Assembly (NCBI GenBank): GCA_019694155.1
Contig: JAIBCN010000056.1
Location: 1 to 64,000, forward strand
DNA length: 64,000 nt
Direction of reading: 5' to 3'
From: Vicinamibacteria bacterium
Lineage (GTDB): Bacteria > Acidobacteriota > Vicinamibacteria > Fen-336 > JAGNNV01
Shown here: in pieces, positions 6,804 through 53,800 of the stretch
Layout: each line of letters begins with the position of its first letter
Numbering within the stretch: the first letter of the stretch is position 1
Translations under genes and position numbers: made by a program
The notes under the pieces: generated by a model
Told to the model about the DNA's origin: nothing
Databases searched by the model: none
What the model saw: only the letters and a program-made list of their open reading frames with translations

Positions 6804-7823
6804 CTACTTCCGTCCTCGAGCTCCCCTGCGGTGGAATCGGCCGCGGTACGCGCTGGGGCTTACCTTGACTCCGACCCGAAAGTGGTGCCTGAACACTGCA
6901 GCGGATCCGAACCCGGACTCCTGCGCGACCTCTTCGATGGAGAGCGTTGTGGTTTCGAGGAGGTCTTTCGCGCGCCGCAGGCGGAGGCCGGTGATCCATT
7001 GGAGAGGGCTCGCGCCCGTCGTGGCGGTGAAGCGACGCGAGAGCGTCCGCTTGCTCGTGTGGGCCGCGCGGGCGAGGTCGGCCACGGTGATCGGGCCTTG
7101 CAACCTTCCCTGCGCCCAGTGCAGCAGCTTCGACAGCCAGGGGTGCGCGGCTTCGCCAATCGGTTTGTCGATGAACTGCGCCTGACCTCCCTCGCGATGC
7201 GGCGGGACGACGGCACGGCGCGCGACCGCGTTCGCGGCGATCGCGCCGAAATCCTTGCGAATGATGTGCAGGCACAAGTCGATGCCGGCCGCGCTGCCCG
7301 CGGAGGTGAGGATGTCGCCTTCGTCGAGGTAGAGCACGTCGGGTTCGACGCGCACCAGGGGGAAGGCCTTCCTCATCGCGTCCACGAAGCTCCAGTGCGT
7401 GGTGGCGCGCCGGCCGTTCAGGAGGCCCGTGGCGGCCAGGACGAAGGATCCCACGCAAAGCGAAACCAGGCGTGCGCCACGTTCGTGGGCCCGGATGAGC
7501 GCACGCACGAGCTCCGGCGGCGGCGGAGCGATCGGCTTCGGCCACCCCGGAATGACGATGGTGTCGGCGTGCTGCAGGTCGCGAAGACCGTGGGTCGGCT
7601 GGACGGTGATGCCGCCGATCGCGCGAACCGGGCGCTTGTTCAGGCCGCACACCGAGAACTCGTACCACGGGCTCATCTCCGGACGGGGGAGCCCGAACAT
7701 CTCCACCACGATCCCGAACTCGAAGGTGCACAGACCCTCGTAAGCCAGGACGACGACGCGGTGCGGCGCAGGCGAGCGGTTGAGGGTTCCGGCGCGTGGC
7801 ACGATCTTGACGATAATTGTCAT
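6804..7823 (-). CDS. FtrA/GlxA-type AraC-family transcriptional regulator
   Basis: About 339 residues. The N-terminal DJ-1/PfpI-like domain (RVVVLAYEGLCTFEFGIVVEMFGL to about residue 190, with ARLVSLCVGSFVLAATGLL carrying the nucleophile-elbow Cys) is probably a ligand sensor. The C-terminal AraC DNA-binding domain follows (ITVADLARAAHTSKRTLSRRF and LSIEEVAQESGFGSAAVFRHHF, about 230-325). The overall layout matches FtrA. Start uncertain: ATG 7823 lies inside the shared regulatory box, and on the minus strand TTGACA-N17-TATCGT (7838-7810) would start transcription downstream of it, so GTG 7802 is a serious alternative. It is divergent from the CocE hydrolase. Confidence 0.88.
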   Translation of the reverse strand: MTIIVKIVPRAGTLNRSPAPHRVVVLAYEGLCTFEFGIVVEMFGLPRPEMSPWYEFSVCGLNKRPVRAIGGITVQPTHGLRDLQHADTIVIPGWPKPIAPPPPELVRALIRAHERGARLVSLCVGSFVLAATGLLNGRRATTHWSFVDAMRKAFPLVRVEPDVLYLDEGDILTSAGSAAGIDLCLHIIRKDFGAIAANAVARRAVVPPHREGGQAQFIDKPIGEAAHPWLSKLLHWAQGRLQGPITVADLARAAHTSKRTLSRRFTATTGASPLQWITGLRLRRAKDLLETTTLSIEEVAQESGFGSAAVFRHHFRVGVKVSPSAYRGRFHRRGARGRK

Positions 7824-40854: not shown

Positions 40855-40918
40855 ACAAGAGACGCCCCCCACGCGCCGCCCCCTACGCGCCCGCCCCTAC
40901 CAAGCCCGTTGGACCTCT

Positions 40919-40967
40919 CGTCATTGCGAGGGCCCCGTCCGTTTCGTACCGGCCCGAAGCAACCCCA
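40919..40967 (+). repeat. Dispersed 'GTCATTGCGAG...GAAGCAA' repeat, copy 1
   Basis: Starts CGTCATTGCGAGGGCCC, has CCGTCCGT in the middle and ends GGCCCGAAGCAACCCCA. It matches 41134-41181 and, reversed, 58185-58232 and 58316-58365. Its end sequences are those of a repeat seen widely in bacterial genomes (GTCATTGCGAG ... GAAGCAATC). Confidence 0.8.
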
Positions 40968-41133
40968 CCCCCGCGAGAGTCCGTTGACACCTCGCGAACG
41001 ACCTCCCGCACGACCCTCACGCCCGGCGCGTGAGAGGTGGGCGTGGACGTGAGCGTGACACGTGCGCCTCGGCCCGCGCCGTTCCGCCGCTCCGTGCCGG
41101 CCACCTACCGGCCCGCTCGGACCGACCCGGCCC

Positions 41134-41181
41134 CGTCATTGCGAGGGCCCCGTCCGTCTCGCGGGGCCCGAAGCAATCCCA
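41134..41181 (+). repeat. Dispersed 'GTCATTGCGAG...GAAGCAA' repeat, copy 2
   Basis: CGTCATTGCGAGGGCCC followed by CGTCCGT, then CCCGAAGCAATCCCA. It differs from copy 1 mainly in the short central segment, as expected for a REP-like family with conserved ends and a variable loop. Confidence 0.8.
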
Positions 41182-41479
41182 CGGCCGCCCTGCTCAAGGC
41201 CCAAGCACCTGCTTGCCCCGAAATACCGTTTGTCTCGTGCGGCCAAAAGGAGTGTAATCCTCACGTGGATGGAAACTCGCCTGGACACCTGAGCCCACCT
41301 TGGCTGCTCCGCACTCGCTACCCTAAGAGAACTAGAGAGCGAATCTATTCCATTCGCTCGACTCGATCGGCGGGGCGACAAGGCGTGACGACCCAGCACC
41401 TTGAGACCGCGCCTTCAAGGTCGCGTTGCCGACTTAGGTCGCGGGACCCGCGACCTACTCCGGGCTACGTAGTGCTACC

Positions 41480-41496
41480 TAATCAGTGTTCTACGA
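41480..41496 (+). other. Left junction of the array (attC/attI remnant)
   Basis: TAATCAGTGTTCTACGA resembles the 3' end of the attC sites (CAACGCAGTGTTATGCG). The bases after the cut, GTTCTACGA, match the reverse complement of the cassette-1 attC arm, TCGCAGAAC, at 8 of 9 positions, so this is where cassette 1 begins. The matching 5' arm is not recognisable upstream. Confidence 0.6.
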
Positions 41497-41525
41497 ACGC
41501 TCCGAGTCAAGGTTGAACTGCTCCG

Positions 41526-42110
41526 GTGACTAAAGGGGCGTTCGCGGTATTGCTCGGCTGGCTCGGCGCAGCGAGCGTACCTGCGCCGATGACTCCACAA
41601 GGCCCCGCTGCGGAAGAGCCCGCCGTGGTCGCGGCAGTCGCACCCGCCTATCCCGACGTAGCTTGGCAAGCCCGTGTCACTGGTCGATACGCGGTGGAGG
41701 TTGTTGTGGCGCCTTCCGGCGCTCCAATGAGAGTGGAAGCGAAGGACACGCCGCGTATCCTGCGAGACGCGATCGAGCGTGCAGCGTTGGCCTGGCGCTT
41801 TGCCTCATCTGCGGTTCCGGAGCGTCGAGTGGCCTTGGTGTTCACCTTCACGCTCGTGCAGGCAACCAGCGAGTCGGACATTCAAGCAGTGATCTTCAAT
41901 CCTCCGTTCGCGGTAGAAGTCCGCAGAAGGATGCCAGTGCCAAGCATCAATAGGGATCCGAAGTCCGAGATCAAGAAAGGTCCCGGAAAGGGGCCCGCGT
42001 CGCAGAACAATGCGTTGGAACGGACGAGGCGAGAAGGAGTGCCCGCTTCGCGGGCAGGCGTTCTTAGCTCGCCTCGCCGCTCAACGCAGTGTTATGCGGG
42101 CGAAGCATGA
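41526..42110 (+). CDS. Cassette 1: secreted TonB C-terminal-like protein
   Basis: 194 residues. The N-terminus looks like a signal peptide (AFAVLLGWLGAASVPAP). A TonB_C-like region at about 40-115 reads AYPDVAWQARVTGRYAVEVVVAPSGAP and AIERAALAWRFASSAVPERRVALVF, the pattern of TonB/energy-transducer C-terminal domains but without the membrane anchor and proline-rich linker. The start is GTG 41526. The reading frame runs through the whole attC (42001-42098) and stops at 42110 in an ATGA overlap with the cassette-2 gene, so the last ~35 residues are attC-derived. Confidence 0.75.
   Translation: MTKGAFAVLLGWLGAASVPAPMTPQGPAAEEPAVVAAVAPAYPDVAWQARVTGRYAVEVVVAPSGAPMRVEAKDTPRILRDAIERAALAWRFASSAVPERRVALVFTFTLVQATSESDIQAVIFNPPFAVEVRRRMPVPSINRDPKSEIKKGPGKGPASQNNALERTRREGVPASRAGVLSSPRRSTQCYAGEA
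42001..42098 (+). other. attC site 1
   Basis: Arms CGCAGAAC / GTTATGCG and inner arms TGCGTTG / CAACGCA separated by short unpaired spacers (AA, GT). The stem continues with CGAGGCGAG / CTCGCCTCG, with extra unpaired G and A on the 5' side. Central loop stem CCCGCTTCGCGGG. 98 nt. Cassette boundary at 42091/42092. Confidence 0.92.
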
Positions 42111-42343
42111 GCCGCGCCGCGAGGTGGATCATCGCTCTGTGCGTGTTCAGCACGGGAGTTGCTCTTCTGTACCCGGCCTTCATCCACTATTGGGCAGCCG
42201 GCGGGCCACCTACTCCAGAGCCAGCCAAGACGTGGCACGCGAGCATGGGCAACATCTTTGTGGCGGCGGCGCTAGCATGTTGGGCCATGGCTGGATGGGG
42301 CCTCTGGATCACTCGGAGCAGGCGAAGCAATGAACGTCGGTAG
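42107..42343 (+). CDS. Cassette 2: small two-helix membrane protein
   Basis: 78 residues. Membrane helices at about 7-25 (WIIALCVFSTGVALLYPAF) and 47-67 (MGNIFVAAALACWAMAGWGLW), joined by a Pro-rich loop (GGPPTPEPAKTW). ATG 42107 overlaps the stop codon of the cassette-1 frame (ATGA) just past the attC junction. No family recognised. The rest of the cassette, 42344-42533, holds no supportable gene. Confidence 0.65.
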   Translation: MSRAARWIIALCVFSTGVALLYPAFIHYWAAGGPPTPEPAKTWHASMGNIFVAAALACWAMAGWGLWITRSRRSNERR

Positions 42344-42533
42344 TAAGCCCCATGGCCGCAGAACGCCGGCAGGATGGTGCAGCTTGGAACCCTGCCTGTG
42401 ATTGATGCTTTGTTGGAGGCTTTGGGCTCAGCCTGGGACTTCGTGCTTGAGCGCCTTTGGCGAGCCGATCACGGTGGGAAAAGCCTTGAAGGGGAGCCGA
42501 AACCGGACTCCGATGGGAAGCCCAAAGATGCAG

Positions 42534-42609
42534 CCGCATAACAATGCGTTGAAGCGGACGAGCAGCCGCCTTTCGTTGCCTGCTCGCCGCTTAACGCAGT
42601 GTTGTACGG
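42534..42609 (+). other. attC site 2
   Basis: Arms CCGCATAAC / GTTGTACGG. The stem TGCGTT-AAGCGG-CGAGCAG is fully paired with the 3' side except for two extra unpaired bases (G and A), a textbook attC pattern. 76 nt. The 5' arm CCGCATAAC is the exact complement of the start of its own cassette (42091-42099). Confidence 0.93.
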
Positions 42610-42673
42610 GCGCTGGGATGATCACCGAAGGGGACGCTATTCAACCGGACCGTTGGCTGGAGACATTTCTCGG

Positions 42674-43438
42674 ATGACTCTGCTTGCATTTGTCACCCTC
42701 GGGCGCAACGGAGGCCCGGTGGACGCCCAAAGACTCGCGACGTCACTGCGTGAACGTTGGCGTCTGAAGGTCGACATGCGGGAAGGAGAACAGCAGGGCG
42801 ATCCGGGCGTTCTGGTCTTCGACCTCATGGGGTCCATGGCTACAGTAAGCCACATGCCAGGGCCGATTCCTTGGTCGGACCTGGCCGGACCGGCCGCTGC
42901 GGCCTGGCATTGGAAGGAGGCTACCGAGGTATTGGAGGCTCACAAGAGCCACCTGCTCGTGGGCCTGCTCCGTGATGACGGCTTACCGCCGCTCAAGCGG
43001 GCAATCATGCTCACGCTCCTTACGGCGAGCGTCATCGAGTGCGCATCTGACTGTACCGGTGTGTATTGGGGTAGCGGAACGGCGGTGACCCCTGCGGAGC
43101 GATTCGCGAGATCAGCGCAGCTGATGACGCCGGAGGAGTTGCCCCTGTTCTCGTGGATAGAGTTTCGCGTCTTCCAAGGGGAGGAGCCTGAAACCTGGTG
43201 CGTATTTACCACGGGCATGAAGGCGCTCGGGCACCTCGAAATCGAGGTACGCGATTCACGAGTGGGTGCCTCGGAGCTTGTCGATCGTGTCTATGGCATC
43301 GCGCACTATTTGACTCAGGCCGGGCCAGTTCTAAAGGACGGCGACACCGTCGGTGATAGCGACGAAGAGCGGATCCGTGTCCGGCACACTCCTTCTGCGT
43401 GGGACCGTGAGGGACCTGTGCTTAGGTTGGAAGTGTGA
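42674..43438 (+). CDS. Cassette 3: DUF4261-family protein
   Basis: 254 residues. Resembles DUF4261 proteins: LLAFVTLGRNGGPVD at the start, WHWKEATEVLEAHKSHLLVGLL, TASVIECASDCTGVYWGSGTAV, LPLFSWIEFRVF and TTGMKALGHLEIEVRDS. Predicted cytoplasmic. DUF4261 members are often linked to suppressor-of-fused-like and polymorphic toxin/immunity contexts, but no function is established. ATG 42674 is the best start; the frame is open back to the attC. Confidence 0.8.
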   Translation: MTLLAFVTLGRNGGPVDAQRLATSLRERWRLKVDMREGEQQGDPGVLVFDLMGSMATVSHMPGPIPWSDLAGPAAAAWHWKEATEVLEAHKSHLLVGLLRDDGLPPLKRAIMLTLLTASVIECASDCTGVYWGSGTAVTPAERFARSAQLMTPEELPLFSWIEFRVFQGEEPETWCVFTTGMKALGHLEIEVRDSRVGASELVDRVYGIAHYLTQAGPVLKDGDTVGDSDEERIRVRHTPSAWDREGPVLRLEV

Positions 43439-43474
43439 GCGGACGACTCATTGAGCGGGGTGGGTCGTGGGCGC

Positions 43475-43572
43475 CGTACAACAAAGGGTTGGAACGGACA
43501 AGGCGAGTTGGTGTGCCCGCTTCGCGGGCAGTCGTTAGAGTCTCGCCTTGCCGCTCAACCCAGTGTTCTGCG
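43475..43572 (+). other. attC site 3
   Basis: Arms CGTACAAC / GTTCTGCG, inner arms GGGTTG / CAACCC, then CAAGGCGAG / CTCGCCTTG. Same internal sequence family as attC 1 and 6, including the CCCGCTTCGCGGG central stem. Its 5' arm CCGTACAAC is the exact complement of the cassette-3 start (42601-42609). Confidence 0.92.
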
Positions 43573-43594
43573 GGCGTCGAGGTTCCGGCGAATC

Positions 43595-44029
43595 GTGTCT
43601 AGGCCCGTCCGATTGGCCTTCACAAATCTCGCGGCGGCGGTGGTTCTCAGTTGCGGAGAAGTGCCTCCTCCGGCGCCGGCTACGAAGGGGCCACCACTTG
43701 CTTGCACAGACCCGGCTCCACCGCCCGTGCCCATATTGAGTCGCCCCACCGATCCCTCTGATTGCCTGAGCCTCGCGAACCGCGAGGGCGGCGTGAGTGT
43801 TGTACTTGGGATCACCCGTGGTGGGAGAGCCAAGTCCGTAGCCGTTCTTATCGATCTCTGCCTGTCTCCCGATGGCAAGGTGCCTCCGCAGGTGACGCTC
43901 TCGGAAGGGGAGAAGGCCTGCATCCTTGAACGTGTTGCCACTTGGCGTTTCGCGGCTTTCGACACCTGCGCTTCGCAATCCGCGAACCTGACTATCCCTG
44001 GGACGCGATTTCCCTGTGGGGCTCGGTAG
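43595..44029 (+). CDS. Cassette 4: lipoprotein with TonB-C-like domain
   Basis: 144 residues from GTG 43595. The N-terminus is a lipoprotein signal (LAFTNLAAAVVLSCGE) with lipobox VLSC, followed by a Pro-rich spacer. The C-terminal domain (about 55-144) has GGVSVVLGITRGGRAKSVAVLID and EKACILERVATWRFAAFDTC, a TonB/AgmX-like pattern close to cassette 1 in layout. The upstream part of the open frame lies in attC 3. Confidence 0.72.
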   Translation: MSRPVRLAFTNLAAAVVLSCGEVPPPAPATKGPPLACTDPAPPPVPILSRPTDPSDCLSLANREGGVSVVLGITRGGRAKSVAVLIDLCLSPDGKVPPQVTLSEGEKACILERVATWRFAAFDTCASQSANLTIPGTRFPCGAR

Positions 44030-44060
44030 GATGCGTCGGGGAATGGTGTCCAACATCCAG

Positions 44061-44139
44061 CCGCAGAACAAAGAATTGGAGCGGACGAGGTCTACGCAGA
44101 CGGCCGAGGGCCCTCGCCGCTCAATTCAGTGTTAGCCGG
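44061..44139 (+). other. attC site 4
   Basis: Arms CCGCAGAAC / GTTAGCCGG, inner arms GAATTG / CAATTC, then GAGCGGACGAGG against CCTCGCCGCTC with one extra A. 79 nt, short-loop type like attC 8. Its 5' arm is the exact complement of the cassette-4 start (43565-43573). Confidence 0.92.
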
Positions 44140-44161
44140 ATATTCGAGGAGCTAGGCGTCG

Positions 44162-44512
44162 TTGAAGCTCTTTCCAAGCTGCGGCGAAAACCTCCCGCGC
44201 CCAGGGTGCTGCGATTGGCCGGTCCCTCTCTCTGACGCGTTGGCAATGGCCGGACTCATCGTGGTGTTCACGGCGCTCGGAATCGCATTCCGTCGGAGCA
44301 ACCGTGCCTGGCTTGTGCGGCTTGGGAGCTGTTTCCTGGGCCTGGCGGCTCTCGAACTGATCACCTTGAACCACGCGGGGCGGAACTGGGGGATCTTCCA
44401 GTGTGTTGGTGAACGGGCTGAGTACTATGATCGGGACTTCGTTTCCATGGTATGCATCGTCATGGGGATCGCCGCCGCAAGAGCAGCACACATGTTGGGG
44501 CGAAGGGGTTGA
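44162..44512 (+). CDS. Cassette 5: small membrane protein
   Basis: 116 residues from TTG 44162, which has GAGGAG about 10 nt upstream. Membrane helices at about 27-45 (ALAMAGLIVVFTALGIAF), 52-70 (LVRLGSCFLGLAALELITL) and 94-110 (MVCIVMGIAAARAAHML). Two Cys near the N-terminus (CGENLPRPGCC). ATG 44246 would be a shorter alternative start. No family recognised. Confidence 0.62.
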   Translation: MKLFPSCGENLPRPGCCDWPVPLSDALAMAGLIVVFTALGIAFRRSNRAWLVRLGSCFLGLAALELITLNHAGRNWGIFQCVGERAEYYDRDFVSMVCIVMGIAAARAAHMLGRRG

Positions 44513-44520
44513 ACCTCCAA

Positions 44521-44636
44521 CCGGCTAACAAGGGCTTGCACCAGACAAAGGCCGCGAGGTGTGCCCCCGCAGCCGTACTCTCGCGGGGGCAGTCGTTGAA
44601 GGCGGCCTTTGCAGGTGAAGCCCGGTGTTATCCCGG
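44521..44636 (+). other. attC site 5
   Basis: Arms CCGGCTAAC / GTTATCCCGG; inner arms GGGCTT / AAGCCC, then AAAGGCCGC / GCGGCCTTT, and a long GC-rich central stem (GCCCCCGC / GCGGGGGC). 116 nt, the long type shared with attC 7. Its 5' arm is the exact complement of the cassette-5 start (44131-44139). Confidence 0.9.
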
Positions 44637-44645
44637 CCTGATGGC

Positions 44646-45086
44646 ATGAAGCTACGGCAGAGAATAGGCGCCCTCGTTCTTGGGGTGGTCGTCGTGTTCG
44701 GCGGCTGGCTCGTCAAGGACAACTGGTGGCCCTCGGGCTCAGACAATGTGAATCGAGTCACGGACGGTACGCCGCTGAAGGCGATAATCGTTTGCACAAT
44801 GGAGAACGAAGTCTTGTGGCGCATCGTCGCGCCGGCAAACACCTCTCTGCTTGGTGCGATCGCCTATGGCTCCGTCCCACCAGGTTTCCTGCAAGAAGTA
44901 CCACCTGGGGGAATGCCGCCTCGAGACTTTCTGCCAGAGGAAACTCTCCAAGTGCGCAATCTGAGCGCTACCGAGGAGATGGGAATCACAGGAGTTGCCA
45001 CAGGTGTGCGCAAGCTTCGCTCCGTAGCTCAGTGGGGTGGCAGGCGTCGCCCGGCGCCCCTAGATTGCCGACCGGAGGACTCCTAG
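44646..45086 (+). CDS. Cassette 6: membrane-anchored protein, unknown
   Basis: 146 residues from ATG 44646. One N-terminal membrane helix at about 7-24 (IGALVLGVVVVFGGWLV), then an exported domain (VTDGTPLKAIIVCTMENEVLWRIVAPANTSLLGAIAYGSVPPGF). No known family recognised; the soluble part looks folded rather than repetitive. The last residues become Arg/Pro-rich shortly before the attC. Confidence 0.68.
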   Translation: MKLRQRIGALVLGVVVVFGGWLVKDNWWPSGSDNVNRVTDGTPLKAIIVCTMENEVLWRIVAPANTSLLGAIAYGSVPPGFLQEVPPGGMPPRDFLPEETLQVRNLSATEEMGITGVATGVRKLRSVAQWGGRRRPAPLDCRPEDS

Positions 45087-45106
45087 TCGTGAGGCCTCGG
45101 AAGCGG

Positions 45107-45206
45107 CGGGATAACAATGCGTTGGAACGGACAAGGCGAGGTGGTGCGCCCGCTTCGCGGGCAGTCGTTGGAGTCTCGCCTTGCCGCTCAACGCAGTGTT
45201 GTACAG
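45107..45206 (+). other. attC site 6
   Basis: Arms CGGGATAAC / GTTGTACAG, inner TGCGTTG / CAACGCA, then CAAGGCGAG / CTCGCCTTG with extra unpaired bases; central CCCGCTTCGCGGG. 100 nt, nearly identical to attC 1 and 3 inside. Its 5' arm complements the cassette-6 start (44627-44635) exactly. Confidence 0.93.
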
Positions 45207-45252
45207 GCAATTGTGCACGCGAGGCGTTGGCAGCGGCGGTGCAAGAGTTCCA

Positions 45253-46185
45253 ATGAAGGGGGCTACCGAGACAGACTTTCGGAGTCGAATGCCAGGAGCG
45301 GGCAAGGCGTTCGTGTTGGTAACGACTGGGGCTGTCCCCCTTGCCGAAGAAGCAAAGGTCGCACACAGCGCGCTGGCGAATGCCATCGATAGGGTAGGCG
45401 GGTATCTGCTTGAAGACGGCGTCCCTGGTGCGCTGCCGACTGGCTTCGCAGACCTGATGCAGCGGCGCGAGGCCGGGGCGCTTTGGGAGCAGGCGTGCCC
45501 AGTGCCAAGGGGACGAGCACGGTCGAGGCAATTCATGAAGTTGCCCGTCAGCATGATGGTTTACCAAGGCTTTCCATGCTGGTTTGCTGGCGGAAGGTCA
45601 TACACTCTGGATCTCTTCAACCCCGGCAACGAGCTTGGGCTTTCGAGCGGGGGTGGAGAGCGAGCGTGGGCGGTGGTCGTCTGGCCTCATACGCAGGGTG
45701 GGTTTTCGGCGGTCCGCGAGGAGAGGCGAATGGTCATCTCCGCGCCGGATCCTCTTTCTGAGAAAGTGGTTCAGCCAGCCCCCGAGGATCCGCCAAGACG
45801 CGGAGGCCTGGGCCTCTTCGCGGACCTTGTGGGGGCGGTTGCGACCGCTATCGATGCCGACTTTGGCCTAGCTGGAACAGGCTTGGCTCAACTCGCGATT
45901 CAGTCACGGGCCGAACCAGGGTCCGTTGGCGCGCTCAGCGACTGGGTACTGCCATTCATGCTTCTTCGGCGAGAGCGTGAGCTACCAGGGGTGCGTCTAC
46001 TCGCGGCCGATAAGGACGTTGAAATGACGAACAGCGAGGGATGGTGGCAAGTTGTTTGGGAGTCTGAGAAGCACCGCCTGATTTGGGCAGCGCTCCGGCA
46101 CCGGCAAGAAGGATTTCCGGACGGCGCGCCAACCGCCATAACGGCATTAGCCCGGAGCCTAGGCCGGAGGTCGTTCCTAGCCTGA
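45253..46185 (+). CDS. Cassette 7, first gene: unknown 310-residue protein
   Basis: 310 residues from ATG 45253, predicted cytoplasmic and mixed alpha/beta: AFVLVTTGAVPLAEEAKVAHSALANAIDRVGGYLLEDG, ERAWAVVVWPHTQGGFSAV, LGLFADLVGAVATAIDADFGLAG and VLPFMLLRRERELPGVRLLAADKDVEMTNSEGWW. I recognise no domain. It is one of the largest cassette genes and shares its cassette with the zinc-finger gene at 46250; no attC separates them. Confidence 0.72.
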   Translation: MKGATETDFRSRMPGAGKAFVLVTTGAVPLAEEAKVAHSALANAIDRVGGYLLEDGVPGALPTGFADLMQRREAGALWEQACPVPRGRARSRQFMKLPVSMMVYQGFPCWFAGGRSYTLDLFNPGNELGLSSGGGERAWAVVVWPHTQGGFSAVREERRMVISAPDPLSEKVVQPAPEDPPRRGGLGLFADLVGAVATAIDADFGLAGTGLAQLAIQSRAEPGSVGALSDWVLPFMLLRRERELPGVRLLAADKDVEMTNSEGWWQVVWESEKHRLIWAALRHRQEGFPDGAPTAITALARSLGRRSFLA

Positions 46186-46249
46186 ATTGTAGAGAGGTGA
46201 CGAACACACGGGGTGTGACCAGAGAAGGCTGGCGCGGCGTTCCGGAGCG

Positions 46250-46642
46250 ATGGAAACAGGAGAGTGCATTGGGACCTCGCCGCTCCAGCCGGTTGGGCGA
46301 GTCCCTCGCGCCGCTATTTGCGAGGATGCAGATGGCGAAATCCTGCTCCTGTTTTGCGATGCGGCATGGGGTTCCCTTGCGTGCGTGACGCAGAAGTCGG
46401 TTCAACACGCGAAAGCCCGCGTGGCGCGGATGTACCCGGGCTCCTCGAAGCACTGGCGAAATGCCAGAGTGACCAAAGCCCGTGCGGCGCAGTATCTTCA
46501 GCCTGTGTGGGCAAGACACCGCTGCCTTTTCTGCCTCAGGACGCCTCTTGAGCACGAGGCCTCGGTGTTCAGCAAAGGGCGCGGCCGAATCTGTGGAACG
46601 TGCGTGGCAGAATTCGCTCAGGATCTGAGCGAGGCGTCGTGA
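46250..46642 (+). CDS. Cassette 7, second gene: ClpX-type zinc-finger protein
   Basis: 130 residues from ATG 46250. Residues about 92-123 (CLFCLRTPLEHEASVFSKGR, then ICGTCVAEF) match the C4 zinc-binding domain found at the N-terminus of ClpX, with both C-x-x-C pairs intact. The first ~85 residues (ICEDADGEILLLFCDAAWGSL) are unfamiliar. In other proteins this zinc finger mediates dimerisation and substrate or adaptor recognition, so a proteolysis adaptor is conceivable. Confidence 0.72.
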   Translation: METGECIGTSPLQPVGRVPRAAICEDADGEILLLFCDAAWGSLACVTQKSVQHAKARVARMYPGSSKHWRNARVTKARAAQYLQPVWARHRCLFCLRTPLEHEASVFSKGRGRICGTCVAEFAQDLSEAS

Positions 46643-46653
46643 ACAATCGGCGG

Positions 46654-46768
46654 CTGTACAACAACGGGTTGCAACCGACAAGGTCCGCAAGGAGTGGCCC
46701 CTCCGCCTTCCGCTCGTGGGGCCAGTCGTTGAGGGCGGCCCTTGCGGCTGAACCCGGGTGTTGGGCAG
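46654..46768 (+). other. attC site 7
   Basis: Arms CTGTACAAC / GTTGGGCAG, inner GGGTTG / AACCCG region, then CAAGGTCCGC / GCGGCCCTTG with unpaired bases, and a long central stem (TGGCCCC / GGGGCCA). 115 nt. Its 5' arm complements the cassette-7 start (45198-45206) exactly. Confidence 0.9.
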
Positions 46769-46788
46769 CCGATCGGTGTGGGTCGAGT

Positions 46789-47799
46789 ATGCGCACCGTC
46801 GCCTGGAAGGCGGCGGCCTACCTAGCTCTCTGGGCGACGCTCTACTCCGAGGCACGAGCCCACGAGTTGGCGTCGATGGGCGCGGGCGCCCTTGTTTCGA
46901 CCACTCAGGCATCAACGCCGAGAGCGCCAACCACTCCCACTCCCTGCTCGGCCGAAACGCTGAAGATCGCGAGCGACGCAGCGAAGGCAATCAGTGCCGC
47001 TGCATTTGGCAAGGTGGACAAAGCTGCTGAGCCACTTTGGAAGATCGGACGCTGTGCGTATCCGGCCCTCCCCGCGCTGTTCCTCGCAACTCGCCGGGAA
47101 CAGGCCTTGGAGGATGTCTGGACTATGAGAGAGGGGCGCGGCATCGACGCAGGGGGGGCAACTCTCGGTGTTCTGCGGCAGTCAGGTGAACTTGGGCTCC
47201 CCGCTATGCGTGTTGCGCTCTCGAGGGGCGGAGCGCTCGAGCAACTCATCGTCCTTGAATTCATCTCGGACGGCAGGCAGGACCTCGCGGCATCGCTGCT
47301 GCCGGAGCTGACAAGCGTTGCTACCACGACCATCGTCGCATCGGCGGAGGGCCGCGACGACTTGAACCAGCGAGGCCTGGCCGCGGAATTGCTCGGGGCT
47401 GCAGGTGCGCGAGGCATTCCGTTCTTGATTCAAGTCCTAAAGGTGCGCACGAGCGCCGACGGCAGGGAGAGTGCCATGGTTGCCTTGGCTGGGCTTGGGC
47501 CACTAGCCGCGGAAGCCGTTCCCGCCCTAATAGAGGAACTGGATTATGAGGTTCATCGGGTCGACCCTCGGGCCGAGCCAATTGCCGTGCAGACATACGC
47601 ATGGGCCCTTGGGGCGATTGGCCCGTCGGCGAGGGCTGCTCTCCCCGCCCTCTACGACGCGCTGAAGCTGAGCGATGAAAGCCTTTTTCAGCAGGGCGTC
47701 AAGGATGCCATTTCAAAGATCGAGGGCCGCACGGCGCCTTTTCCCTCTCCAAAGCCGATCGAGGCTGGCGGGGCGGCCATTCGCAATCGATGGAGTTGA
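46789..47799 (+). CDS. Cassette 8, first gene: exported HEAT-repeat protein
   Basis: 336 residues from ATG 46789. Signal peptide at about 1-24 (AAAYLALWATLYSEARA). Alpha-helical repeats of HEAT/PBS-lyase type follow: LGVLRQSGELGLPAMRVAL, RGLAAELLGAAGARGIPFLIQVL, AMVALAGLGPLAAEAVPALIEEL and YAWALGAIGPSARAALPALYDAL. HEAT repeats usually mediate protein-protein contacts. A periplasmic scaffold or adaptor is likely; the partner is unknown. Confidence 0.78.
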   Translation: MRTVAWKAAAYLALWATLYSEARAHELASMGAGALVSTTQASTPRAPTTPTPCSAETLKIASDAAKAISAAAFGKVDKAAEPLWKIGRCAYPALPALFLATRREQALEDVWTMREGRGIDAGGATLGVLRQSGELGLPAMRVALSRGGALEQLIVLEFISDGRQDLAASLLPELTSVATTTIVASAEGRDDLNQRGLAAELLGAAGARGIPFLIQVLKVRTSADGRESAMVALAGLGPLAAEAVPALIEELDYEVHRVDPRAEPIAVQTYAWALGAIGPSARAALPALYDALKLSDESLFQQGVKDAISKIEGRTAPFPSPKPIEAGGAAIRNRWS

Positions 47800-47826
47800 C
47801 CGGGTTGAAAGCATGAGCGCGCTGCG

Positions 47827-48156
47827 ATGGAGGCGGCAGTGACAGCGGAGCCTCTCCGAGTGGAGGGTTCATTCGGGGCTAGGTTTGTAGCCGAGGCCCA
47901 GCGTTTGGGAGTGCCGCTCTCAGCCGCGCAGGCCGAGCGCTTGAGTAGGGGCACAAAGGGGCAGATCATGCTGGCGGTGGAGAAGAAGCTCCCGTCGCTC
48001 AACCCAGAGATCCTGCGTTTGCTCAGTCGGCGTGGCCCAGAGGCACTCGCCAGGGAGCTATCGAGTCGGAGCAGGACCGAGGGTGGACTCCTGGCAACCG
48101 CCGGAGAGGTGGTTGACGTTGCGTATGCGGTAGACATTTTGGGGGCGGTTTTGTAG
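47827..48156 (+). CDS. Cassette 8, second gene: small unknown protein
   Basis: 109 residues, mostly helical and charged: GSFGARFVAEAQRLGVPLSAAQAERLSRGTKGQIMLAV, then PEILRLLSRRGPEALARELSSRS and a hydrophobic C-terminus (VVDVAYAVDILGAVL). No domain recognised. It follows the HEAT gene by 27 bp with no attC between, so the two probably travelled together. Confidence 0.6.
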   Translation: MEAAVTAEPLRVEGSFGARFVAEAQRLGVPLSAAQAERLSRGTKGQIMLAVEKKLPSLNPEILRLLSRRGPEALARELSSRSRTEGGLLATAGEVVDVAYAVDILGAVL

Positions 48157-48185
48157 GGGCTCGATGCGTCGTGAACAACAACCGG

Positions 48186-48264
48186 CTGCACAACAAGGAA
48201 TTGGAGCGGACGTGGTCCTCGCAGACGGACTGGGGCCCACGCCGCTCAATTCAGTGTTAGAACC
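48186..48264 (+). other. attC site 8
   Basis: Arms CTGCACAAC / GTTAGAACC, inner GAATTG / CAATTC, then GAGCGGACGTGG against CCACGCCGCTC with one extra A. Close to attC 4 inside. The 5' arm complements the cassette-8 start (46760-46771) at 11 of 12 positions. 79 nt. Confidence 0.9.
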
Positions 48265-48313
48265 ACGCAGCCCCGATCGCCGCGTTCGATAAGGACAATC
48301 TGCTAGGCCGCTG

Positions 48314-48691
48314 ATGAACTTTCTGTTCTTACTCTTCCCGGCCGTCGCCCAAACAGTCATCTACGGGTCGTACGTCGAGGGGCCCATCCCGCAGGGGCTG
48401 ATCCTTGTGGGCTGCCTCTTGCCTTTCTACGTGCCGTCCACTCTTCACTTTTGCAGAGTTCCACTTTTTGCACATGAGAGGCATCACCGAATATGGCTCT
48501 TCAGCATGATCTGGTTCGGAATCCTCGCTGTTGGGGCAGAACTTCTCCTCGCCTTCGGAAGCCCCAAGACGACCGTGCATGGCCCAGTAGCCCTTCGAAT
48601 GGTCATGCACTCGGGATGGTATGGATTTGTTCAGCTGGCCCGAAGCTATCGGGACTGGGACTCCGAGTGGCGGCGTCTAACAATGCAGTGA
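48314..48691 (+). CDS. Cassette 9: small membrane protein
   Basis: 125 residues. Membrane helices at about 2-20 (NFLFLLFPAVAQTVIYGSY), 27-44 (GLILVGCLLPFYVPSTL) and 58-78 (LFSMIWFGILAVGAELLLAF), then a soluble tail with Trp/Arg (WRRLTMQ). No family recognised. The stop codon lies inside the attC 9 5' arm, a usual arrangement in cassettes. Confidence 0.68.
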   Translation: MNFLFLLFPAVAQTVIYGSYVEGPIPQGLILVGCLLPFYVPSTLHFCRVPLFAHERHHRIWLFSMIWFGILAVGAELLLAFGSPKTTVHGPVALRMVMHSGWYGFVQLARSYRDWDSEWRRLTMQ

Positions 48692-48740
48692 ACCTGACGA
48701 AGTCCTCCCAGACGGACCGTGGCGTTCGCAGGTTATGAGC
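48673..48740 (+). other. attC-like site 9 (degenerate)
   Basis: 5' side GCGTCTAACAATGCAGTGAAC, 3' side GTTCGCAGGTTATGAGC. Arms pair only partly (TAAC / GTTA), but the AACAATGC / GGTTATG context and spacing fit. The cassette-9 ends agree at 7 of 9 positions (48256-48264 against this 5' arm). 68 nt. Confidence 0.65.
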
Positions 48741-49121
48741 AGTTTCGACGGGCCTGCGACGGGCGGAAGCCTACGCCCGTGCCGGGCAGTCTGCGGAGGC
48801 GACGCCTCAATCAGAATGGAATGGACCGCGTGTCGGGCGCTGAGGTTGGTTTTGCCCTCGTTGGCTGAAGTTGCCAAACTCAGAACGGAGCTGGACGGAG
48901 TCGCTGTCACCTTGGATCGACAGAAACCCGATAGGGCGGGATTGCGCTCAAGAGGACAGGAGGCCTTCCATCGAGTGGCGAGTGTCCGCGCACGGGGCGT
49001 AGAACAACCCGACGCAACCGACGAGGGTGCTCGGGATGCGTCCGGCCTTCGGCGGACGCATCATTCATTAGGGCCCCTCGCGGCTGATCGCGAGTGTCCT
49101 ACGGGCTTGGCGGCGGCCTGA
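48735..49121 (+). CDS. Cassette 10: doubtful 128-residue reading frame
   Basis: Begins with ATG 3 nt after the cassette junction (48732/48733) and runs through attC 10, stopping at 49121. The translation is Arg/Ala/Gly-rich with no visible domain or hydrophobic core (GLRSRGQEAFHRVASVRARG), and no ribosome-binding site is evident. It may be a non-coding or decayed cassette; kept with low confidence because cassettes usually carry one gene. Confidence 0.3.
   Translation: MSSFDGPATGGSLRPCRAVCGGDASIRMEWTACRALRLVLPSLAEVAKLRTELDGVAVTLDRQKPDRAGLRSRGQEAFHRVASVRARGVEQPDATDEGARDASGLRRTHHSLGPLAADRECPTGLAAA
48998..49103 (+). other. attC-like site 10 (degenerate, right end)
   Basis: 5' side CGTAGAACAACCCGACG, then CGACGAGGG; 3' side CCCCTCGCGG, then GTGTCCTACG. 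Outer arms CGTAGAAC / GTCCTACG pair at most positions, and the central region has TGCGTCCG / CGGACGCA. The core reads GTC instead of GTT, so it may no longer be active. Last attC-like site seen. Confidence 0.65.
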
Positions 49122-49130
49122 AGGGTCAGC

Positions 49131-49763
49131 ATGGGTATCGGATTTGTCCTGTTGATCTGGATCGCTCTGTTCAGCTGCGCGGGCGTTCCAGTGGCCGGGG
49201 CCCTGGCGTGGTGGAGTTGGCGCAATAGTCGCCACGGTGCGCTACCTTGGAAGGCGCGGGCTCTCGTCGCCGGTGCTCTGCCGTATGCGCTCATCGCGGT
49301 CGGGCTTGCCTGGTTCATTGGTTACGCCATCATCGCAGGGTCACTTGGCATGGATCCCGGGCTCGGCGACAGCTGGTCTGTTCCCCTGACGAATGGCTAC
49401 TTCTTCTGCATGATCGACGTGCCCGACAAGGGCTATCTCATGAAGGATGGCTGCAGCGGCTCTCCACCGGTTGACGGCATCACACGGCTTGCCCAGTGCG
49501 GCAACTTCGTGACTGGCTCCAACGGCTCGGCCACTTTTCTCTTCGACACCGCCCGCGATGTCCTGGTCGCGAACCCCAGCCAGGCGGTGATCGACAAGGA
49601 GTGCGGCCCTTCGATACAGTTGCAAGCCGCTAACGAGTTCTATGGAGCGCGCCGGTCCGGCTGGCTGGATCTCGGTGCCCTCGCGGTGCTCCTTGGCTTG
49701 GTGACCTCAATTTCCGTCTTCTGGCACGGGCGCTTCATCCGTGAGCGTAAGGTTGTGGCATGA
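49131..49763 (+). CDS. Membrane protein with large central loop, unknown
   Basis: 210 residues. Helices at about 3-26 (GFVLLIWIALFSCAGVPVAGALAWW), 44-66 (LVAGALPYALIAVGLAWFIGYAI) and 183-200 (LGALAVLLGLVTSISVFW). Between them is an extracytoplasmic loop of about 110 residues with several Cys (FFCMID, DGCSGS, AQCGNF, KECGPS). No family recognised. It lies 35 bp after the last attC-like site and has cassette-like composition, so it may be an eleventh cassette whose own attC has decayed. Confidence 0.7.
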   Translation: MGIGFVLLIWIALFSCAGVPVAGALAWWSWRNSRHGALPWKARALVAGALPYALIAVGLAWFIGYAIIAGSLGMDPGLGDSWSVPLTNGYFFCMIDVPDKGYLMKDGCSGSPPVDGITRLAQCGNFVTGSNGSATFLFDTARDVLVANPSQAVIDKECGPSIQLQAANEFYGARRSGWLDLGALAVLLGLVTSISVFWHGRFIRERKVVA

Positions 49764-49801
49764 GCCAGGCTTGGGTGGACTGACATGAGGCGCATCGGCC
49801 G

Positions 49802-50263
49802 ATGAACATCTGGGGCTCGGATGGCTTTGTGGCCAATCACTTGAGCCTGCTCGTGCTTTGCGTCGCCTTGTCCGGGAGCTCAATCGTCGTCTATCTGAGA
49901 CGGCGGGCTCTCCGGTGGGAGGAGGAAGGCCTTTGCCCTCGTTGTGGTTCAACCATGACTGAAGACCCGTCGGCGGAGGGGGGGCAAGTCTGTGCGAGAT
50001 GCTCTTCAGCGGAGAGGACCGGAGCGATCGTGGTGTTCTGGCTCCTCCTGGCGGGCTCTCTGGCCATGGGGATGCTCCTGGTCGGCATCGTTGTGGACAG
50101 GGCGTCGGATAGCCGCCCAACCTCGTGGGGCGCCCTGATTCCATTTGTCGTGGTGGAGCTTTACCTGGTTCAAGGCACGGTTGCGGCTTACGGCTCGGGC
50201 CAGGTAAGCGCGAGGAAGAGAGGGAGGCGGCCCGACCGGCCCGCATTTCCAATGGCCACATGA
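49802..50263 (+). CDS. Zinc-ribbon membrane protein, unknown
   Basis: 153 residues. Helices at about 14-32 (LSLLVLCVALSGSSIVVYL), 76-100 (GAIVVFWLLLAGSLAMGMLLVGIVV) and 109-130 (WGALIPFVVVELYLVQGTVAAY). Between the first two is a four-Cys ribbon, CPRCGS ... CARCSS, on the cytoplasmic or periplasmic side. No named family recognised. It follows the 49131 gene by 38 bp, same strand. Confidence 0.7.
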   Translation: MNIWGSDGFVANHLSLLVLCVALSGSSIVVYLRRRALRWEEEGLCPRCGSTMTEDPSAEGGQVCARCSSAERTGAIVVFWLLLAGSLAMGMLLVGIVVDRASDSRPTSWGALIPFVVVELYLVQGTVAAYGSGQVSARKRGRRPDRPAFPMAT

Positions 50264-50559
50264 CGCCGAGGCCTCGGAGGACCCAGACAGCCGACCACGC
50301 CTCTGGCGCGCCATTTCTGCGCCGGGTCGTCGGTGTACCTGAGAAGTTCGAGGAGGGCCGATACCCCTTCACTATCCGCGCTTTCTCGCGGGGCATAGAC
50401 CTCACGTTCCCAACCAACGTCACCTTCTTCGTTGGGGAGAACGGCAGCGGCAAGTCGACGCTCAACGCCCCGGGACGATTCTTCAAGCATCTCTTCGAGG
50501 ATGAAACTGGCGTTGATCCTGGCGCGGGCGATCCGGACCCGGCCGGCGGTCTGAAGTGA
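50260..50559 (+). pseudogene. Internally deleted AAA-type ATPase remnant
   Basis: The 99-residue frame starts like small bacterial AAA/ABC-like ATPases (GAPFLRRVVGVPEKFEEGRYPFTIRAF, then VTFFVGENGSGKSTL with an intact Walker A). Immediately after GKSTL it continues NAPGRFFKHLFEDE, resembling the C-terminal end of the same protein family (…RFLRHLFED). The signature, Walker B and switch regions are missing, so about 150 residues appear deleted in frame. It overlaps the phospholipase D start by GTGA. Almost certainly non-functional as an ATPase. Confidence 0.7.
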
Positions 50560-51947
50560 GCCGGCGAGACGTCGCGTCCCATCAAACGACTCACATCCCG
50601 TTCGTTGCCACGGGGGCCTATCCCGTGCGCACGGGCAATCGGGTCCGCCCGCTCGTCGATGGCGAGCCCGCATTCCGCCGTGTGTGCGCGGCCATCGACC
50701 AGGCCCAGGCGCGGGTGTGGGTCGCCGTCACGTTTCTGTGGGCCGACTTTCAGATGCCCGACGGGCGCGGTTCGTTCTTCGAGGTGCTCACGCGGGCGCG
50801 CCGCCGTGGACTGGACGTCCGGGTGATCTTCTGGCGGCCGGACGAGGCGAGCGCGGAACTGCGGACCAACGCGTTTTGGGGGTCTCCTGAGCACAGGGCG
50901 CTACTGAAGCAAGAGGCGTCTGACGTCAGCATTCGCTGGGACCGCGCCCAGGCTGGGTTCTGTCAACACCAGAAGTTCTGGGTCCTGGACGCCGGGCTGG
51001 ACGCGGGCTGTGCCTTCGTGGGCGGCATCAATCTCAATCCGCATTCGGTGGTCGCACCCGGACACCGTGGGGCGGAGCAGAATCACGACATCTACGTCGA
51101 GGTCAGCGGGCCGGCGGTGACCGACATCCACCACAACTTCGTGCAACGCTGGAACGAGGCCAGCGAACGGCAGGAGACGGATGGCAGGTGGGGGCCTGAT
51201 GCTGATCGCGATCTCGGCTTTCCGACCGAAGTCGCGGCGGCCCGCGGGTCGGCGGTTGTCCAGCTTCAGCGGACGATCCAGGCCGGGCGCTACACCGACA
51301 CTCACCCCGTTCCCGGCGGGGCGCCGTTCGCGATCGCCGGGGGAGAGTTCTCGAATCGCGACCAGTACATCCAGGCGATCCGCGCGGCGCGCGAGTGCAT
51401 CTATCTCGAGAACCAGGCGATCAGTGTTCAACCCATCCTGGATGAACTCGTCGGCGCGATCGGGCGCGGGGTGGCGGTTGTCCTGGTGGCGCCGCCGACC
51501 GCGAGCAGCACCGACCAGCCTGCGGATGGACGTACGGGGCTCTTCCGTGACGAACGACGCGCGCTGGCGCGTTCGCCGCTTTTCACCCTGGCGGGACTGG
51601 CCGGGCTCGATCTCAATGGCTCACGGCAGCCCGTGCATGTGCATTCCAAGCTCATGATCGTCGATGATGTCTGGGCGACGGTGGGCTCCTGCAACCTCCA
51701 TCGATATTCGATGGATGGCAACAGTGAACTCAACGTCGCCTTCACCGATGCGATGGCCGTGCGTTCATTGCGGTGCGAGCTTCTGGCCGAGCATCTCGGG
51801 CGGGACACGTCCACGCTCGATGGCGGCTCGGCGCTCCGCGTGTTTCGCGCCGTGGCTCAGGAGAACGCGGCTCGTCGGGACCGTGGAGATTCCAATTGGG
51901 AGGGCCTGGCCCACGCCCTGGACCCTCTTCAGTACTGGCCGCTCTGA
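50556..51947 (+). CDS. Phospholipase D-family protein
   Basis: 463 residues with two HKD motifs: H138-x-K in GFCQHQKFWVLDAG and H363-x-K in VHVHSKLMIVDDVWATVGSCN. Supporting segments are VWVAVTFLWADFQMPDGRG, GAEQNHDIYVEVSGPAVTDIHHNFVQRWN and YIQAIRAARECIYLENQAIS. No signal peptide. PLD enzymes hydrolyse or transfer phosphatidyl groups (phospholipase D, cardiolipin synthase), and some act as nucleases. GTG start inside the stop codon of the ATPase remnant. The 3' end overlaps the convergent amidase gene by 19 bp. Confidence 0.9.
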   Translation: MSRRDVASHQTTHIPFVATGAYPVRTGNRVRPLVDGEPAFRRVCAAIDQAQARVWVAVTFLWADFQMPDGRGSFFEVLTRARRRGLDVRVIFWRPDEASAELRTNAFWGSPEHRALLKQEASDVSIRWDRAQAGFCQHQKFWVLDAGLDAGCAFVGGINLNPHSVVAPGHRGAEQNHDIYVEVSGPAVTDIHHNFVQRWNEASERQETDGRWGPDADRDLGFPTEVAAARGSAVVQLQRTIQAGRYTDTHPVPGGAPFAIAGGEFSNRDQYIQAIRAARECIYLENQAISVQPILDELVGAIGRGVAVVLVAPPTASSTDQPADGRTGLFRDERRALARSPLFTLAGLAGLDLNGSRQPVHVHSKLMIVDDVWATVGSCNLHRYSMDGNSELNVAFTDAMAVRSLRCELLAEHLGRDTSTLDGGSALRVFRAVAQENAARRDRGDSNWEGLAHALDPLQYWPL

Positions 51948-53800
51948 CCCTCTCGCTCCGCGAAGAGAGGCGGCCGCTTCGTGTGCCACGGCGTCTCTCG
52001 CTCGAAGGCGAGGCCGGCGTCGAGGAGGGTCGCTTCATCGTCGAGGCGGCCGGTCAGCATGATGTTCTGCGGCATCTCGATCCCTGCCTCTGACTTCACG
52101 AAGCCGGCGGGCAGGACGAGGGCGGGGTGGCCGGTGAGGTTCGTCATGTTGACGCTGTCCGACGATGGAGGAGCGAGGAAGGCGTCGATGCGTTCGAATA
52201 GCTGCTCGAGCGCTCCGATCATCAGCGTGCGCACGCGCTGCGCGCGAATGTAGTCCACCGCGGGTATGAAGCGCGAGGCGCGGAGCTGGCTCGAGCGGTC
52301 GTTCGGGCCCTGGCCTTCGAGCTCGTCCACGGCGCCGCTGCGGGTGATCTCATCGAACATGGCGCCGGCTTCCGCGTTGTGGATGGCGTACAGCGCGGCG
52401 GCGGGGAACGGAGGCAGGGTGACGGGGACGATCTCGAATCCCAGCTTTCGATAGACCTCGACCGCGGCCTCGAACACGGGCCGGGTGAGGGCGAAGGCGG
52501 CGCGCTCCTTCTCGCTTGCCGTTGAAGGAACGTCGAACAGTTCGGACTCCACGACTCCGATGCGGAGCCGCCTGGCATTCCGTGCGCCTGACGGCGTCCA
52601 GGCGAAGGGGGTTGCCGTGACGCTGCCATCGAGACCGTCGGGCCCGTGAATGGCCTGCAGCACCGCCCCGCTGTCCTCCACCGACCGGGCGATCACGCCG
52701 GCTTTGTCAAGAGTCCAGCGAAGGGTCATCACGCCGTGCCGGCTGACGCGGCCGTAGGTCGGGCGCAGGCCCACGACGCCGCAGGTGCTCGCGGGGGAGA
52801 CGATCGAGCCGCCCGTTTCAGTGCCGAGGGCGAAAGGCACCAGGCCCGCCGCCACCGCGGCGGCCGGGCCCGCCGAGGAGCCGCTCGCGCCCGTGGTTGG
52901 GTCCCAGGGGTTCTTCGTCTTCCGTCCCTTGATGCCCTCGGCCGTGCCGGAAAGCGGCCGCCCGTTCTGGAACTGCGCTTCGCCCGACCACGCATCGCCG
53001 ATGGCGAGTTCGCCGGTCGAGAGCTTGGCGGTGAGGCAGGCGCCCGCGGCCTTGAGCCTGCCGATCGCGGTCGCGTCCGTAGTGGGAATGGGGCGATTGC
53101 GGTACGGCCGGGCGCCCCACAGGGTGCGGATGCCCGCCGAGTCGAAGAGGTCCTTGGCCCCATAGGGGATTCCGTGGAGGGGGCCTTTCGCGCTTCCCGC
53201 GCGTCGTTCCGCGTCCGCGCGCTTCGCCTCGGTGAGAGAGCGTTCGTCCGCCAGGGTCACCACGCAGGAGAGCGCCGCATCGTGGCGCTGGAGGCGATCC
53301 AGAGAGAGCTTCACCAGATCCTCGCTCGAAAGCGCGCCCGAATCGAGCCAGGCGCGCAGGGTGGAGACCGAGGCGAAGGCGATGTCGAGGCCGGCCTTCG
53401 GCGGGGCCGGTTTTGCCGCCAGGTTCGGCCCACGAGACGCGGGCGGGGTGTTGGTTTTCGGTAGGGCCCGCGCCGGCCGCGTCCGCCGAGGGTTGAAGGA
53501 GAACGCCGGCTCGACCCCGGTGGGGACATCGATGCCCCTCAAGGTCTCGATGTGCGTGCGGTATCGGGTGACGAGCGGGGCCGCCTTGGAGAGCGCCTCG
53601 TCCGTCTGCCGCATTCCGGCCACGGTCTGCGCGGTGCGCAGGGTCGGGACGTCGATGCCCGTGGCGGCCGCGGGGGGTGCCTGGGGTGCGGGAGACGGTG
53701 CTTCAGGTGCGGCGGCGAGGGCGGGTGCGGCGAGCGCGGCGACTCCGGCTCCAATGAACCCGCGTCTCGACGCGCGCTTCGTATCCATGCTCTTCTTCAT
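51929..53800 (-). CDS. Exported amidase-signature-family hydrolase
   Basis: 623 residues. Tat-like signal (KRASRRGFIGAGVAALAAPALA) with the twin arginine, then a Pro/Ala-rich linker. The amidase-signature domain (about 175-615) has the Ser-Ser-Lys triad: Lys in HGIPYGAKDLFDSAG, cis-Ser in GASGSSAGPAAAVAAG and the nucleophile in LGTETGGSIVSPAS. It hydrolyses amide bonds; the substrate is unknown, and Tat-exported members are often found in Acidobacteriota-type genomes. ATG 53800 is preceded by GGGGGAAA. It is divergent from a cupin gene 73 bp away. Confidence 0.9.
   Translation of the reverse strand: MKKSMDTKRASRRGFIGAGVAALAAPALAAAPEAPSPAPQAPPAAATGIDVPTLRTAQTVAGMRQTDEALSKAAPLVTRYRTHIETLRGIDVPTGVEPAFSFNPRRTRPARALPKTNTPPASRGPNLAAKPAPPKAGLDIAFASVSTLRAWLDSGALSSEDLVKLSLDRLQRHDAALSCVVTLADERSLTEAKRADAERRAGSAKGPLHGIPYGAKDLFDSAGIRTLWGARPYRNRPIPTTDATAIGRLKAAGACLTAKLSTGELAIGDAWSGEAQFQNGRPLSGTAEGIKGRKTKNPWDPTTGASGSSAGPAAAVAAGLVPFALGTETGGSIVSPASTCGVVGLRPTYGRVSRHGVMTLRWTLDKAGVIARSVEDSGAVLQAIHGPDGLDGSVTATPFAWTPSGARNARRLRIGVVESELFDVPSTASEKERAAFALTRPVFEAAVEVYRKLGFEIVPVTLPPFPAAALYAIHNAEAGAMFDEITRSGAVDELEGQGPNDRSSQLRASRFIPAVDYIRAQRVRTLMIGALEQLFERIDAFLAPPSSDSVNMTNLTGHPALVLPAGFVKSEAGIEMPQNIMLTGRLDDEATLLDAGLAFERETPWHTKRPPLFAEREGQSGQY

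Follow-up and report, generated by a model that had tools for sequence, protein, structure and literature searches.

Tandem gene cassettes without a neighboring integrase gene may be the remains of a dead integron, the product of insertion at an off-target site, or an array that is still loaded by an integrase encoded elsewhere. This question is raised by an array of ten attC-like sites, located between positions 42005 and 49099 and every one on the + strand, in a genome of a Vicinamibacteria bacterium. The stretch analyzed (the window) comprises 64,000 nucleotides (nt) of contig JAIBCN010000056.1 (here C225; 64,107 nt), and the genome assembly (5.27 Mb in 257 contigs) is 93.7% complete and 0.5% contaminated. 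The array lacks an adjacent integrase gene (intI) and begins with a 176-nt attI-like head. As judged from the sequence comparisons described below, the balance tips slightly toward cassettes that were put in, and could still be exchanged, by integrases encoded on other contigs, IntI_A (C87) and IntI_B (C64).

attC sites of the window and of the genome

No Rfam family matched the window at gathering cutoffs. Nine window sites, all but the one at 48678 (site 9), were used to build an attC model of our own (R1). Since the R1 scores of the nine model sites (61 to 99 bits) are circular, the attC identity rests on the left-out site, on sites linked to intI in other genomes, and on paired sequence changes. 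Site 9 scored 20.4 bits (E value of 1.5e-4 over 10.8 kb). Six further genomes from the order (G004, G005, G007, G008, G013, and G014) contained R1 matches on the 3' side of intI and in its orientation. Among 80 named intI loci (each of at most ∼20 kb), 15 contained a total of 17 R1 sites, all within ∼6 kb of intI, and 65 contained none. In an alignment of 49 matches, which was fitted to the model and includes one window site read from its minus strand, 96.2% of the pair cells were paired versus 80.9% in shuffles (0 of 500 shuffles were as high), and 10 of 19 R1 pairs showed changes on both sides.

An earlier note on this DNA had described an attC array of ten sites and had suggested folding the bottom strand of each. 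The plan of outer AAC/GTT arms, spacers, inner arms, and a bottom-strand hairpin was found in sites 1 to 8, whose folds had z scores of −3.5 to −7.2 (for each site, none of 200 shuffles was as stable). The fold of site 9 was weak (z score of −1.95; 11 of 200 shuffles as stable), and site 10 formed no single canonical hairpin (z score of −3.3; 1 of 200 shuffles as stable); in both sites the 3' GTT is altered. R1, the folds, and the intI-linked sites elsewhere thus bear out the array as eight well-formed attC sites plus two decayed ones at its far end. To the right of it (49100 to 52000), no more attC-like matches were found on the + strand up to an E value of 1 with filters off. The G+C content was 62.2% in the array versus 67.8 to 67.9% in the flanks.

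The description in the earlier note was incomplete in that the window array is one of ten arrays in the genome. At least 46 strong R1 sites were located on ten contigs (C225, C19, C10, C163, C205, C138, C11, C176, C40, and C80); this count is a lower bound, since 150 of 3592 candidates were scored in the scan. A weak match was also present on C204 (E value of 0.13). With weaker sites counted, the ten arrays comprise 49 attC sites and 47 bounded cassettes, and 43 of the 47 have their longest open reading frame (ORF) on the array strand. Two arrays have an unreadable left end: C19 opens within the terminal part of an IS30-type transposase gene (assigned by eye), and C10 within an attC site. Both may be missing parts of intI-linked arrays.

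Repetitive extragenic palindromic (REP)-type elements, spread genome-wide in noncassette contexts, would mean that the array is not an integron structure at all. A separate intergenic repeat does occur at 40920 and 41135. However, the aligned R1 matches show paired changes, related sites lie beside intI in other genomes, and the strong R1 matches (at least 46 among the candidates scored) are confined to ten cassette loci, with no genome-wide spread seen. Distribution in the genome, intI linkage, and paired changes refute REP-type palindromes, to which we assign practically no weight.

Integrase genes and attI-like heads

Integrase genes were searched for with profile TIGR02249 at a cutoff of 265 bits. 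The absence of intI beside the array, as described in the earlier note, was confirmed by the lack of any match on C225, and the array is accordingly not a complete integron. The same does not hold for the genome, in which the search revealed two full-length genes: intI_A (C87:29664-30602, 417 bits) and intI_B (C64:298-1236, 413 bits). The other nine TIGR02249 rows were below the cutoff, and none was on an array contig. IntI_A and IntI_B are 56% identical (182/327), and IntI_A is alignable through to IntI4 of V. cholerae. On C87 as on C64, the array side lies 3' of intI, and the contig ends 126 to 127 nt past the crossover, in sequence common to the two; their own intI-linked arrays were hence cut off in the assembly.

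In two other genomes, intI is broken at about residue 280 to 290 by neighboring tyrosine recombinase genes on the opposite strand (G002:C207, locus L167; G005:C127, locus L169). We take the interrupting genes to resemble an RIT element.

Eight integrase-less arrays have a readable left end, and seven of them begin with an attI-like head, of which four sequence types (A to D) could be distinguished. The eighth (C40) has a stump with just the first 11 to 18 nt of type B, followed by an IS30-like piece that is also present in C19. The type A head of C163 matches the site behind intI_A with 80% identity over 61 to 64 nt (score of 37, versus 17 for the second best of 39,814 overlapping windows). 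The type B heads of C138 and C205 give gap-free alignments of 161 nt with the site that follows intI_B (84.5% and 79.5% identity, respectively). Type C comprises the heads of the window and of C80, both 176 nt long and 62.5% identical without gaps (0 of 500 shuffles were as good), and their homology stops exactly at the crossover; conservation amounts to 32/37 and 44/59 at the ends and 34/80 in the middle. The type D heads of C11 and C176 are 96% identical over 188 nt at unrelated loci with nothing in common upstream, which indicates that they were copied without intI.

An 11-nt core, TAATCAGTGTT, is present in three copies in the genome (C80, C87, and the window), each at a head, and its reversed pattern occurs once. 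The window head thus has this core in common with the site behind the intact intI_A; over the full length, homology between type C and the site behind an intact intI is weak. Sites 3' of intI in relatives have similar cores in G004 (CTACTAAGTGTT) and G007 (CTATTCAGTGTT); that of G008 differs (AACTGTTC), and none was made out in G005. Remnants of intI were recognized at several heads. About 30 codons before the C80 head resemble the end of IntI (50 to 54%; hidden Markov model E value of 0.002 among 9051 frames). The heads of C138 and C205 begin within the counterpart of the last 20 intI_B codons of C64, in frame to the same stop (by eye), and the C205 remnant was also detected by tblastn (64% over 28 amino acids [aa]; E value of 0.007). 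In addition, the type B heads (C64, C138, and C205) contain a promoter-like Pc, TTGACC-18-TGTAAT, in which 0 of 12 hexamer positions and 10 of 18 spacer positions vary.

The view that the array has no attI therefore had to be given up: positions 41315 to 41490 are homologous to the C80 head, which stands behind an intI remnant, and have their core in common with the intI_A site. From these likenesses, we infer that the window head is an attI-like site with the function of an attI. They bear at once on the idea that the cassettes entered a chance genomic site (attG) via an integrase elsewhere, so that the left edge would be no attI. Off-target insertion, next to intI loss or rearrangement, is named as an origin of clusters of attC sites lacking integron integrases (CALINs) in the accessible portion of PMC8618304, and two integrases are available in this genome. 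Yet the 176-nt homology to the C80 head ends exactly at the crossover, the core is common with the site behind intI_A, and seven of the eight readable left ends are attI-like; we consider a chance site very unlikely.

Several further observations were made at the left ends of arrays. The IS30-like piece of C40 sits between the type B head stump and the first cassette; over 103 nt, C40 (L051 9135-9238) and C19 (L044 1-325) are 98% identical, in what appears by eye to be the end of an IS30-type transposase gene. To the left of the array, the first ORF of 150 aa or more runs in the array direction at seven of the eight integrase-less arrays (C225, C163, C138, C11, C176, C40, and C80), with C205 as the exception. 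The intergenic repeat mentioned above, GTCATTGCGAG...GAAGCAATCCC, lies on the + strand at its two positions left of the window array and on the − strand at 27078, 58221, and 58354. It precedes the head in array orientation at six of the eight arrays (C225, C163, C205, C138, C40, and C80; not C11 and C176) as well as intI_A, and it is found in the other orientation to the right of the arrays at C163, C19, C10, and C176. In other genomes, C-terminal remnants of intI precede attC arrays in G002:C460 (L164 1486-1713; 67 aa, E value of 7e-34) and G003:C86 (L174 about 7416-7505; 18 aa, E value of 0.34, with a nucleotide match).

Possible loading in trans or loss of the integrase gene

C138 and C205 have in common a cassette body of 229 nt (98.3% identity), which occupies the second place in C138 and the first place, adjoining the head, in C205; the two heads themselves are 81.4% identical. 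This cassette hence moved after the heads of C138 and C205 had diverged. Since both heads are without intI up to the same codon, an integrase encoded elsewhere is the simplest reading. The cassette body itself has no ORF over 38 aa and may be an ORF-less cassette.

Because the core of the window head equals that of the IntI_A site, loading of intI-less heads in trans can be extended to the window. The window head would work as attI, and IntI_A could recognize it through the common core. The integrase would act in trans, and integration would follow the scheme of known integrons, in which the bottom strand of attC is joined to attI at G^TT. A wider proposal, which we make only tentatively, is that of a distributed integron: a head of ∼160 to 180 nt, with a Pc in one type, would be self-contained and would spread without intI, and two integrases would load one pool of cassettes in trans into eight or more docks.

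Alternatively, a complete integron may have been inserted and its intI deleted, so that head and array would now be inert and receive no service in trans. Loss of intI is among the CALIN origins proposed in PMC8618304, as far as that source was accessible; the end of intI is still present at C80, the array of G002:C460 is preceded by the 67-aa remnant, and the last two attC sites of the window are degenerate. In contrast to what inert remains would suggest, the heads have kept their length and are conserved in blocks around a variable middle, the transfer of a cassette between two arrays lacking intI postdates the divergence of their heads, and the nearly identical type D heads at unrelated loci point to copying without intI. 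We regard inert remains as the main competing reading, though as less likely than not.

Whether the array was placed at this locus by the assembly alone was judged from two congeners, G001 and G002 (75% and 78% complete, respectively). At the window site, their flank homologies end 24 and 31 nt apart, versus 11.1 kb here. The empty site in both congeners indicates that the 11-kb insertion in the window is lineage-specific. At the C80 site, G001 has 100 nt instead of 5.8 kb (which includes an upstream ORF), and other genes take the place of the array at the C163 site in G002 and at the C176 site in G001. The four loci compared (C225, C80, C163, and C176) are lineage-specific; the flanks of C40 are on separate contigs in the congeners. 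Among the 150 of 2210 candidates scored in G001, R1 detected no site, and of its 12 sites in G002, none was on contig C79. When five congener stretches were scanned with R1, weak matches appeared at two places (14.0 and 12.7 bits), both away from the C225 junction. A misplaced array of an intI-linked integron is conceivable in an assembly of 257 contigs in which the arrays adjoining both intI genes are cut off, and this may apply to C19 and C10 with their unreadable left ends. The window array, however, is enclosed in a contig of 64,107 nt, in which the sequences on both sides of the array are collinear with G001 and G002, and the flanks of C80, C163, and C176 also match congeners on both sides, so that we hold an assembly effect at the window to be very improbable.

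Past the last attC site, the insertion contains two ORFs and a phospholipase D-like gene (49131 to 51947), possibly older cassettes with decayed attC sites.

Several results weigh against loading of the window array by IntI_A or IntI_B. No cassette was common to the window array and the other arrays, and recent activity in trans at this locus is thus unsupported. Its distal attC sites (9 and 10) have decayed, as in an ageing array. Before the window head, 85 of 500 shuffles matched the end of intI as well as the actual sequence, and no remnant is claimed there. No sigma-70-type promoter was found in the heads of the window, C80, and C11, so that the absence of a Pc asserted in the earlier note stands for the window head, as opposed to the type B heads with their promoter-like hexamer pair. 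For head types C and D, the assembly (93.7% complete) lacks a cognate integrase. The integrase-less arrays of G005, G007, and G008 yielded no further copy of the site that follows intI in these genomes. Finally, a search with the joined heads returned just the known heads in the own genome and nothing better than an E value of 0.03 in 17 relatives, and it missed C163, a head shown by other comparisons. With these points included, loading in trans remains the reading to which we lean.

Cassette genes and relation to known integrons

The array and its surroundings are listed in Table 1. That the cassette genes read in one direction was confirmed, as the longest ORF lies on the + strand in nine of the ten window cassettes; in cassette 10 it comprises 53 aa on the − strand. 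The expectation of mostly undescribed genes was likewise correct, with matches over the curated Pfam cutoff in 2 of 12 scanned window cassette ORFs (DUF4261 and HEAT_PBS). A search of a database of 5.8 billion, from which 7996 candidates were scored, yielded two homologs (48% and 40% identical) of the 310-aa protein of cassette 7. Elsewhere in the genome, cassette 11 of C19 (L044) appeared HicA-like and cassette 1 of L046 RidA-like by eye.

Table 1. Head, attC sites, and cassette ORFs of the window array and the insertion that contains them
Feature	Position	Strand	Remarks
Lineage-specific insertion, aminotransferase-amidase interval	40855..51950	.	Head, array, and three more ORFs without attC
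attI-like head, type C	41315..41490	+	Crossover G^TT at 41488-41490; core TAATCAGTGTT at 41480-41490
Cassette 1 ORF, 194 aa, reads through attC 1	41526..42110	+	TonB_C-like, below cutoff (22.9 of 24.6 bits)
attC site 1	42005..42094	+	99.4 bits (in model R1); fold z −7.2
Cassette 2 ORF, 84 aa	42089..42343	+	
attC site 2	42539..42604	+	61.5 bits (in model R1); fold z −6.9
Cassette 3 ORF, DUF4261	42674..43438	+	Pfam E value of 5e-17
attC site 3	43479..43568	+	98.6 bits (in model R1); fold z −6.1
Cassette 4 ORF, 144 aa	43595..44029	+	No Pfam match (longer frame from 43451 scanned)
attC site 4	44066..44134	+	69.7 bits (in model R1); fold z −6.1
Cassette 5 ORF, 116 aa	44162..44512	+	No Pfam match
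attC site 5	44526..44630	+	73.6 bits (in model R1); fold z −5.6
Cassette 6 ORF, 153 aa	44625..45086	+	None over Pfam cutoff
attC site 6	45112..45201	+	97.8 bits (in model R1); fold z −6.4
Cassette 7 first ORF, 310 aa	45253..46185	+	Two homologs at E value of ≤1e-3
Cassette 7 second ORF, 130 aa	46250..46642	+	
attC site 7	46659..46763	+	78.5 bits (in model R1); fold z −3.5
Cassette 8 first ORF, HEAT_PBS repeats	46789..47799	+	Pfam
Cassette 8 second ORF, 109 aa	47827..48156	+	
attC site 8	48191..48259	+	66.2 bits (in model R1); fold z −6.5
Cassette 9 ORF, 125 aa	48314..48691	+	No Pfam match
attC site 9, degenerate	48678..48747	+	20.4 bits (outside model R1); fold z −1.95
attC site 10, degenerate, GTT to GTC	49002..49099	+	66.1 bits (in model R1); fold z −3.3, not one hairpin

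On its sequence features, the window array would be filed as a CALIN with an attI-like head; CALINs themselves are well known. It agrees with this IntegronFinder term in its tandem attC-bounded cassettes of one orientation without intI nearby. It differs in keeping an attI-like head and in being one of eight such arrays with a readable left end in a single genome with two distant intI genes. In the parts of the Xanthomonas ilvD-integron study that were available (PMC12444791), intI has been lost in many strains and CALINs occupy several chromosomal loci, similar to the situation here, but attI heads at dispersed CALINs are unreported in those parts, whereas four head types recur at separate loci in our genome. 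Mobilization of CALINs in trans is called possible both there and in the available text on archaeal integrons (PMC9668308). Archaeal integrons, according to the latter, have attI directly 3' of intI and arrays on the 3' side, as do C87, C64, and the six relatives; attI stands beside intI there and is also found without intI here. A further parallel comes from the Delta-attI-type cassettes of mobile integrons, for which the accessible portion of PMC12901181 reports a shortened attI apart from intI that is functional with IntI1. There, attI ends a cassette, whereas here an attI-like site opens entire arrays at several distinct places on the chromosome. Among the literature matches listed, from a search with most subscription journals outside it, none reports several attI-headed integrase-less arrays in one genome.

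A survey, as far as its text was accessible, counted 2961 CALINs versus 2760 complete integrons, and IntegronFinder 2 is stated there to leave attI sites outside class 1 undetected (PMC9024848). By such counts, CALINs are no rarer than complete integrons, and the present case makes it possible to test whether they are inert, inserted off target, or still being loaded. The genome offers integrase-less arrays with four head types together with two candidate integrases in one cell, and the heads supply sequences of attI-like sites outside class 1.

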